Assembly: GCA_007116145.1 (NCBI GenBank) | Contig: SKJB01000131.1 | Span: 1-46,295 of the forward strand | DNA length: 46,295 nt | Direction of reading: 5' to 3' | Origin: Limnochordia bacterium | Lineage (GTDB): Bacteria > Bacillota > Limnochordia > Darwinibacteriales > DTU012 | Part shown: in pieces, positions 2,947 through 5,652 of the stretch | Numbering within the stretch: position 1 is the first letter of the stretch | Layout: each line of letters starts with the position of its first letter | Notes under the pieces: model-generated | The model's input: only the letters and a program-made list of their open reading frames with translations | What the model was told of the DNA's origin: nothing | Database searches by the model: none | Program-made: the position numbers and the translations under genes

Positions 2947-5652
2947 TTGCTAGTAAAACGACTACCTTGGATACTTACTTTGTGTCTAGTAATCGTATTT
3001 GCAGGTAGTCTACCAAGCACTGCCAACACGTATTACACGTTAGAAACCCCGAATTTCTTGATTCATTTTCCCTTAGAATATCTGGATTATGCCAAACAAG
3101 TGGGAACTGTAGCTCAATGGGCTCACGATCAATTATACCCTGCGTTTCGTTATACGCCAGAGGAACGTACTCATATCACGGTCTTCGACCGAGGTGACCT
3201 GGCAAATGGCTTTGCTGATAGTATATTGTATAATATGATTGGTCTTTATCCAATCGATCAGGTTGGATATGGCTATCGCTCTGGGATGAGCGCTAATGGT
3301 TCGGATTGGTTATCCCTACTAGTCCTACATGAATATGCACATATTCTTCATCTCGACTTAAATACAGGACTAGCCCGCAATCTTCGTAGTATTTTCGGCC
3401 GAATACCTGGAGCTGGTAATCCCCACATAATGCAGAGTTATGCGTTAATTGAGGGGATTGCCTTATGGCAAGAGACAAATAAAACAGGTGGAGGACGGGG
3501 AACAGCGGGGTTTTATGATATGTTTCTGCAGGGCATATTAGCGGATCAGAAATTCCTATCTGGAGATCAGGTTCTTGGCCGCTATAGTCTTAGTGGTTGG
3601 CATCCTGGCACCGCATATTATTTCTATGGCTACTATTTGGTCGACTATTTGATTAACCAATACGGAGAGGACTCCTTTTATCGATTGTTAGATTATTTAG
3701 CGCAACAACCGACATCCTTAGATAACGGTCTAAACGAAATATACTATCAGGGCTTTAATCAGATCTGGGATGATATGGTGTATACTCTGCAAGCAAAACA
3801 AACTAGTAAGAAACAGACTACACAAGCTTGGGAGTATCTTAATACTCATGGAGAAATTCAGCGCCATCCTGTTTTCTCGCCTGATGGAAACCACCTTGTC
3901 TATTTTGCGAGTGGAAATACCACACCTGCTCTACGCATGTATTCATGGTCAACAGGTGAGGATCAGCAACTCGTTCAAGGACGCTTTAGTGATGAATCGC
4001 AAGTATCCTGGTTAGATAATCAGCGTATTGTTTATGGAAAACTAGAGTTAGATCGTTTTGGTTACTCCCGTTACGATCTCTATGAATATAACTTAGCAAC
4101 CAAACAGGAAACCCGGCTTAGTTTCGGCAAGCGTATCTATGCTGTGACAGCATTAGATTCGGAGTCATTAGTCTATTTGCAGCGAACAACAGAAGATACG
4201 GTAATCGGCGTTAAGCAAGATGGCGCTTTTCAAACCATTGAGGGTCATCCGGGAGATCGCTTAGCAAATATCACTGCAGCATCCAACGGCACACTCGCAA
4301 TTAGCGTAACGGAAGCTTCGGGTTACCGCAACTTGTATTTGCTGACGATACATGGAGCACATAGTATTCGCACTCCGATCACGCAAGATACAAAGAGCCA
4401 AGGGAATCCAGTATTTAGTACTGATAACCGCTATCTATTTTTTGATGGAGATTATACAGGAGTGTTTAATATCTATGCATGGGATATCCAGACCAACCAA
4501 TTTTATCAAGTCACCAACTCACGCTTTGGTTCCTTTGCTCCAGCAGTGACCATCGATGGGCAGTGGCTTGTCGTGATGGATTATACCCCTGATGGATATA
4601 AGCTTGCTAAAGCAAAGCTAGATTCAAGGGAGTGGACTGCTGTCCAGCTCCCGTTCGTTAGTTTACCTGTTGCTAGCAAACCGGAATTGTTTCAAGGAGA
4701 GATAGTTCCGTATAACTCGTTATCGAGTATGCGTCCGCGTTTTTGGCTTCCTGTTCTGGAAGCTGAACCGCAATTCGTTACCGGCGTGTACACCGCAGGT
4801 AGGGATGCCCTCGACCAACACGATTACTCCGCCATGATCGGCTATGGATGGGACACGCATACCCTTGCTGTTAAACTGAACTATCAACATAAGGTTAGAG
4901 CTCCTTTCCGTCCGACTCTTACAGTATCCTTTACACAAGCAACACATATGCACGATCAGGGTTTTCGCCAACAGCAGAACTTCGATTTAATGTCTTTGAT
5001 CACAAAACAAACCTACTTTTCCGCTTTACAGTTTGGAATGGGCTTGACTGGAGTAAGGCAGGTAACAAAGCCTTTGTCAACCACAAAGTTAGCAGGAAAA
5101 CTAAGGATTACCTACCAAGATTACCAGGGCGCAGGCACACACTATCACCAACGAAGTGGGGTACTGACGTATCTACAAGAGTTGAACACAGCTAAACGGT
5201 ATCAAACAGGGGTGTTAGCGTGGAAGGAAGCATGGGGTGAATTAGGTTCTGGAAAATTAACAATGCAGACAACGATTGGACACTCTAGCGATCCAAATGG
5301 TTTTGTTGTTGGAGGCCTAGATGGGGTCTATGCAGTTCGAGGTTATGGTCGCGAAGAACGAACAGATGCGTATATCTTATCCTTTGACTTTGAGTACCCT
5401 GTGTTAAAAATCGAGCGAGGTTGGGCGGATTTTCCAATATTTCTACAAGAATTTCAACTTAATGCATTTATGGATTTCACAGATGGGTGGTCACAAAATC
5501 GCTGGCAGTCTGCAGGATTCGAGTTCGGTCCAAATATTTCTTTACATTATGGTAATGCTACGTTTTACCCAAGGATTGGCGTAGTTAAAACAATTCATAA
5601 CGAGAAATGGCAGTGGTATCTACGAACTGGTATGGGGTCTATCTACTTTTAG
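2947..5652 (+). CDS. Exported HExxH metallopeptidase with TolB-like repeats and an Omp85-like C-terminal barrel
   Basis: 901 residues from TTG 2947, preceded by AAGGAGG. Residues 1-26 form a signal peptide ending near S-T-A. Residues about 30-290 carry a gluzincin-type active site: H128-E-Y-A-H132 and a downstream L-I-E169-G-I-A segment supplying the third zinc ligand, as in peptidase MA-like enzymes. Residues about 300-560 hold WD40/TolB-like beta-propeller blades (repeated P-V-F-S-x-D-x-x-x-L-x-F). From about 600 the sequence alternates like an outer-membrane barrel, with G-G-L-D-G-V-Y-A-V-R-G-Y at 788-800 followed by an F-D-F-E-Y-P strand, the pattern around the VRGF/Y motif of Omp85/BamA barrels, and ends in aromatic Phe. 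Peptidase and propeller are well supported; the barrel is inferred. It stands alone between a divergent DUF421 operon and copZ. Confidence 0.75.
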   Translation: MLVKRLPWILTLCLVIVFAGSLPSTANTYYTLETPNFLIHFPLEYLDYAKQVGTVAQWAHDQLYPAFRYTPEERTHITVFDRGDLANGFADSILYNMIGLYPIDQVGYGYRSGMSANGSDWLSLLVLHEYAHILHLDLNTGLARNLRSIFGRIPGAGNPHIMQSYALIEGIALWQETNKTGGGRGTAGFYDMFLQGILADQKFLSGDQVLGRYSLSGWHPGTAYYFYGYYLVDYLINQYGEDSFYRLLDYLAQQPTSLDNGLNEIYYQGFNQIWDDMVYTLQAKQTSKKQTTQAWEYLNTHGEIQRHPVFSPDGNHLVYFASGNTTPALRMYSWSTGEDQQLVQGRFSDESQVSWLDNQRIVYGKLELDRFGYSRYDLYEYNLATKQETRLSFGKRIYAVTALDSESLVYLQRTTEDTVIGVKQDGAFQTIEGHPGDRLANITAASNGTLAISVTEASGYRNLYLLTIHGAHSIRTPITQDTKSQGNPVFSTDNRYLFFDGDYTGVFNIYAWDIQTNQFYQVTNSRFGSFAPAVTIDGQWLVVMDYTPDGYKLAKAKLDSREWTAVQLPFVSLPVASKPELFQGEIVPYNSLSSMRPRFWLPVLEAEPQFVTGVYTAGRDALDQHDYSAMIGYGWDTHTLAVKLNYQHKVRAPFRPTLTVSFTQATHMHDQGFRQQQNFDLMSLITKQTYFSALQFGMGLTGVRQVTKPLSTTKLAGKLRITYQDYQGAGTHYHQRSGVLTYLQELNTAKRYQTGVLAWKEAWGELGSGKLTMQTTIGHSSDPNGFVVGGLDGVYAVRGYGREERTDAYILSFDFEYPVLKIERGWADFPIFLQEFQLNAFMDFTDGWSQNRWQSAGFEFGPNISLHYGNATFYPRIGVVKTIHNEKWQWYLRTGMGSIYF

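Follow-up and report, generated by a model that had tools for sequence, protein, structure and literature searches.

What would a chain that joins an HExxH peptidase, a beta-propeller and a membrane barrel be doing in a cell of the phylum Bacillota? The question is raised by a gene in the window, which here means the whole analysed stretch of 46,295 nucleotides. The first-pass annotation of this gene read it as an exported protease ending in an Omp85-like barrel, and reasoned from there to an outer membrane.

The open reading frame starts with TTG, and a strong Shine-Dalgarno sequence, GGAAGGAGGCG (GGAGG box), lies 8-9 nt upstream. The features that had been named in the 901-residue product are all present: HEYAH at residues 128-132, a PD40/TolB propeller, V-R-G-Y-G-R at 797-802, phenylalanine as the final residue, and an N-terminus that looks like a signal peptide. 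The gene is laid out as follows.

2947..5652, plus strand: the whole gene, 901 aa, with signal peptide, gluzincin-type peptidase, TolB-like propeller and Omp85 barrel.
2947..3030, plus strand: putative signal peptide, residues 1-28, from sequence inspection, with low pLDDT in the model.
3031..3816, plus strand: peptidase domain, residues 29-290, with HExxH at 128-132, E169 as the likely third zinc ligand, and an invariant E176.
3328..3342, plus strand: HEYAH, predicted zinc-binding motif, residues 128-132, from sequence and conservation.
3817..4647, plus strand: TolB-like six-bladed propeller, residues ~291-567, from NCBIfam TolB models, the AlphaFold2 model and a structure match.
4690..5649, plus strand: linker and 16-stranded Omp85 barrel, residues 582-901 (strands 599-893), from the model and from structure and profile matches.
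5335..5352, plus strand: V-R-G-Y-G-R loop-6 motif, residues 797-802, between barrel strands 11 and 12, from sequence, conservation and the model.

The propeller is the part that domain libraries recognise directly. PF07676 (the PD40 propeller repeat) scores above its Pfam cut-off, and the NCBIfam TolB models match the propeller region; both are also found in 45/45 aligned relatives. Peptidase_MA_2 (PF13485) reaches E 1.8e-5 and 25.1 bits, against a Pfam cut-off of 32.4 bits, and matches 8/45 members at E<=0.01. The Omp85 domain PF01103 was not matched by the protein itself in the Pfam search, and is matched in 20/45 relatives. Searching the PDB with the single sequence returned mostly TolB-like propellers, and a PDB search with the peptidase profile gave weak best matches, with an M1-type aminopeptidase on top (E 0.007).

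The 45-sequence alignment was also the input for AlphaFold2. The resulting full-chain model has a mean pLDDT of 90.6 and a pTM of 0.91. Along the chain it has the signal peptide (1-28), a mixed alpha/beta peptidase (29-290), the propeller (~291-567), a short linker, and then the barrel strands (599-893). A structure prediction had been proposed as the way to tell a barrel from a soluble beta-sandwich. It gives a 16-stranded Omp85 barrel at 599-893 and no sandwich, so the annotation's claim about the C-terminus stands. Modelled alone, the barrel has a pLDDT of 91.5 and consists of 11 strands, a long loop that bears VRGY, and then 5 strands. In the model this is the Omp85 order.

Structure comparison with the full model is dominated by propeller matches, and the propeller resembles TolB with a Z of ~25. 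The barrel of the full model nonetheless aligns with Deinococcus radiodurans BamA over 286 residues (Z 20.9, rmsd 4.2). On its own, the barrel matches Bam/Tam/FhaC/Sam50 structures at Z 17-19. The barrel matches are Omp85 proteins (BamA, TamA, FhaC, CdiB, Sam50, Toc75), and the Foldseek list for the barrel also has two porin entries (OccK3/OpdO).

Sequence profiles agree. The barrel profile of the family matches a BamA-barrel profile from the same class with an hhalign probability of 99.8% (E 1e-27). The whole-family profile matches the BamA of its own genome at E 1.3e-12 and BamA-sized ORFs across the class down to E 1e-23. A profile search of the PDB finds the BamA proteins of D. radiodurans and Fusobacterium. 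The 16 strands, the RGF/Y motif in loop 6 and the barrel homology together support membership of the Omp85 superfamily.

Such a barrel would call for an outer membrane. At 2.76 Mb and 96.6% completeness, the window's genome contains a canonical BamA of 577 residues with POTRA and Omp85 domains, and this gene adjoins a 1159-residue TamB and OmpH-like genes. LptF/G, LptA-like and OstA/LptD-like genes lie near BamA. The annotation had held that a genome lacking all outer-membrane assembly genes would speak against its inference; BamA, TamB and OmpH are there. Its suggested search for bamA, lptD and tamB succeeded for BamA and TamB. LptD in the form of PF04453 was not found in this genome, and an OstA/LptD-like ORF sits in the outer-membrane cluster instead. 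Across the class Limnochordia, Omp85 is found in 65/67 genomes. The diderm inference is therefore borne out by the Lpt-like and assembly genes, and for the class as a whole it was already known, since electron microscopy has shown Limnochordia with an outer membrane (PMC11456536).

Elsewhere the window's genome encodes a protein with an SLH domain, a coiled coil and an apparent barrel (L104:1-1713, G000:C109), which resembles an OmpM-like outer-membrane tether.

In a census of genomes at least 85% complete for the window's order (G000-G035), LpxC was found in 0/32, versus 31/35 other genomes of the class. Omp85/BamA is present in 31/32 genomes of the order. An LpxB-like protein is present in 30/32, where it scores lower than in the families that carry LpxC. 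There is one LptF/G in 31/32, and two in most LpxC-bearing families. One genome, G031, has a cluster of LptD-like, LptC/A-like, FabZ, LpxB-like and LptB-like genes. This pattern suggests that the outer membrane of the order has a bridge of the Lpt type but no ordinary lipid A/LPS. Possibly another glycolipid is exported.

The outer-membrane cluster of the order can be seen at L021 1-20000 and in L126. Inside it, and conserved between two genomes, is a membrane protein of ~718 residues with a permease-like C-terminal end, beside an ABC ATPase (L021:2201-4354 and L126:10790-12949). The window's genome also encodes a second enzyme-bearing Omp85 protein of 939 aa, which has an S41 peptidase and an Omp85 barrel (PF03572, PF01103; L022:5803-8622, G000:C63). 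A TPR-POTRA-barrel protein with a weak BamA-like match lacks its start at a contig end (L023:10-1611, G000:C153).

How widespread is the three-domain protein? Relatives occur in 7/40 related genomes, the window's own included, and the best has 52% identity over nearly its full length. The closest relative is from the Limnochordia, in the same taxonomic family as the window; the annotation was right to name this class. Scanning genome contigs with the single sequence gave no relatives; with an alignment as query, a scan over one genome for each GTDB species gave 455 confirmed ones, of which the best 80 were retrieved. Going by their record titles, these 80 come from Limnochordia, other Bacillota-labelled genomes, Halanaerobiales, Myxococcota and other former Deltaproteobacteria, and also from Nitrospirota, Gallionella, other Pseudomonadota, Gemmatimonadota, Aminicenantes and Margulisbacteria. 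One is labelled Clostridia (DTU080), a lineage that GTDB places within Limnochordia. Judged on the best 80 of 455, the distribution suggests a family confined to diderms. It is patchy, being found in about 1/4 of Limnochordia genomes.

A 76-sequence tree places the window's protein among other sequences from Bacillota (97, starred), and a branch (94) puts every Bacillota row on one side. Two very divergent copies are found in the window's order (G003, G022; L014:4551-7175, L015:2763-5390). They have ~20% identity and a long branch, retain HExxH and RGY, and are perhaps a second subfamily.

Conservation is strongest where catalysis would take place. H128, E129, H132, E169 and E176 are invariant in 45/45 aligned full-length relatives, which argues that the enzyme is under selection. 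HExxH with a likely glutamate ligand downstream, E169, is the pattern of a predicted gluzincin (clan MA). The scan pattern demanded HExxH, so its presence in all retrieved relatives is partly by selection; it is followed 25-60 positions downstream by EGxA-like residues in 72/72 complete relatives. That glutamate and the barrel motif lay outside the pattern. In 67/72 complete relatives [LVMIA]RG[YFLV] is found as far from the C-terminus as expected, versus 12% in shuffles. Among the aligned relatives R798 is conserved in 44/45 and G799 in 43/45, position 800 is Y, F or L, and in an FxDxG-like barrel motif after RGY both F841 and D843 are conserved. Since both the downstream glutamate and the barrel motif are conserved, selection acts on the peptidase site as well as on the barrel.

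The annotation knew of no description of such a layout. This is only partly right. Ten Omp85/TpsB subfamilies were defined in 2014, and the main text of that paper includes WD40-Omp85 proteins, in which a TolB-like propeller instead of POTRA domains precedes the Omp85 barrel, and likens them to a BamA-BamB fusion (Heinz and Lithgow, PMC4104836). The propeller and barrel were thus already published. A peptidase is not mentioned for this group in the same main text, whereas all 72 complete relatives have an intact HExxH-E peptidase in front of the propeller. No description of an HExxH peptidase in a propeller-type Omp85 protein was found in a search that covered the main text of 2014 and freely available papers. 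The literature searched also held no experimental study of the peptidase-propeller-barrel architecture. Tentatively, the peptidase of propeller-type Omp85 proteins is so far undescribed, and the most fitting label for the 901-residue protein is that of a WD40-Omp85 member whose conserved peptidase the available text does not note.

Other known types fit less well. With BamA the protein shares the 16-strand barrel, the RGF/Y motif of loop 6 and sequence homology, but it has a peptidase and a propeller in the place of POTRA domains, and the genome has its own canonical BamA. A POTRA-based BamA paralogue was dropped as a candidate, there being no POTRA among the Pfam matches of the 45 relatives. 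The patatin-Omp85 proteins PlpD and FplA also have an N-terminal hydrolytic enzyme before the barrel, which in PlpD is periplasmic, but there it is a lipase with a POTRA domain. This type was dropped too, as patatin is unmatched in the protein and in the 45 relatives. PF00149, a metallophosphatase-type domain, is absent from the Pfam matches of the 45 relatives, and the domain here is of the HExxH kind. This separates the protein from the 'Metallo' Omp85 subfamily, called metalloprotease-Omp85 in 2014, which in the main text rests on PF00149 (PMC4104836). A 2024 paper still describes the metalloprotease-, WD40- and patatin-type subfamilies as poorly characterised (PMC11116518).

With this in hand, the anatomy can be given with near certainty: the protein belongs to the Omp85 superfamily, is exported by Sec and resides in the outer membrane, with a 16-strand barrel inserted by BamA, and with a predicted N-terminal zinc peptidase and a TolB-like propeller in the periplasm. 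Export, for which there is an apparent signal in the sequence, the barrel fold and active-site conservation are all supported by the computed results. The periplasmic side is what we infer for the peptidase and propeller, because domains before the barrel are periplasmic in Omp85 proteins, and so is the enzyme domain of PlpD (PMC11116518).

The best explanation of the protein as a whole is a periplasmic protease, anchored in the outer membrane, that controls the quality of envelope proteins or processes them, at a probability of roughly one half. BamA would insert the C-terminal barrel into the outer membrane, leaving the peptidase and propeller on the periplasmic side. The propeller, which is positioned next to the barrel in the way that BamB sits next to BamA, would bind client proteins or bring them into place. 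The HExxH-E peptidase could then cleave these clients, which may be outer-membrane proteins that have misfolded or stalled, or else proteins in need of processing. Both the predicted protease activity and the identity of the clients are what we infer.

BepA, an M48 zinc peptidase of E. coli, carries TPR. It too is an envelope zinc peptidase, and a similar outer-membrane job is proposed here, but BepA is a separate periplasmic protein and not anchored by a barrel. A BepA-type M48 protein with TPR is not what was found: M48 matches weakly in 2/45 relatives and is absent from the 901-residue protein, and there is no TPR. Client editing by a zinc peptidase at BAM thus has a precedent in BepA (PMC8423444; PMC13067283). 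By this analogy the mechanism might be that of a membrane-anchored, BepA-like envelope protease, a proposal that falls a little short of an even bet.

The relatives examined are from diderm phyla, and live in LpxC-bearing as well as LpxC-lacking Limnochordia. An LPS-specific task is therefore unlikely, and a general envelope role fits better. Against quality control, the patchy spread is unlike that of a core quality-control factor, the Peptidase_MA_2 score falls short of the Pfam cut-off, and no conserved neighbours link the gene to BAM or to a stress response. No neighbours recur across phyla among the retrieved loci, which hold just lineage-specific housekeeping genes and spurious antisense ORFs.

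It is improbable that the protein goes further and is a one-chain assembly-and-editing machine, with a BamA barrel, a BamB-like propeller and a BepA-like protease fused. The barrel would take in arriving outer-membrane proteins, and the attached peptidase would clear the failures. If true, such a machine would be spread over many diderm phyla, and be in use also in Limnochordia that lack LpxC.

The protease could also work outside the cell. The barrel would then be an anchor or self-secretor, as in an autotransporter, and the enzyme would digest external protein or attack neighbours. The Omp85 relatives FhaC/TpsB do export proteins, some relatives come from groups that are predatory or scavenging, for example Myxococcota, and surface delivery is raised for enzyme-bearing Omp85 proteins in the main text of 2014 (Heinz and Lithgow, PMC4104836). 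However, the peptidase and propeller are N-terminal to the barrel, like POTRA domains; in PlpD the comparable enzyme domain is periplasmic, and passage of a folded domain through the barrel has been argued to be unfavourable (PMC11116518). A surface or secreted nutritional protease is therefore unlikely.

Equally doubtful is an accessory insertase or translocase, with a barrel that folds or moves clients like BamA/TamA and a protease that secondarily edits or releases them. The Omp85 hallmarks are kept (RGY in loop 6, the FxDxG-like motif, 16 strands, BamA homology), but the missing POTRA domains are the usual client-receiving part, and a canonical BamA is present as well. Very unlikely is a role in peptide uptake or sensing, where the peptidase would trim peptides or signals entering via the barrel lumen: peptidase and barrel do share one chain in a confident model, but the barrel of an Omp85 protein is normally narrow or closed, and the retrieved loci have no conserved transporter or sensor neighbours. 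Nothing speaks for the annotation's own null, a soluble beta-sandwich in a monoderm cell, which has next to no chance given the predicted barrel matched to Omp85 structures, the BamA, TamB, OmpH and Lpt-like genes, and the electron microscopy of Limnochordia (PMC11456536).

Omp85 proteins that carry an enzyme are an acknowledged branch of the superfamily, but they have hardly been studied (PMC11116518). The analysis adds a zinc-peptidase site that is intact and conserved throughout a widespread group of propeller-barrel proteins, together with a three-domain model of high confidence and residues that can be tested. The gene content also confirms that this uncultured Limnochordia lineage is diderm. 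It seemingly lacks lipid A synthesis at LpxC while BamA and an Lpt-like bridge are retained, a combination relevant to the way in which outer membranes have changed and been lost in Firmicutes.
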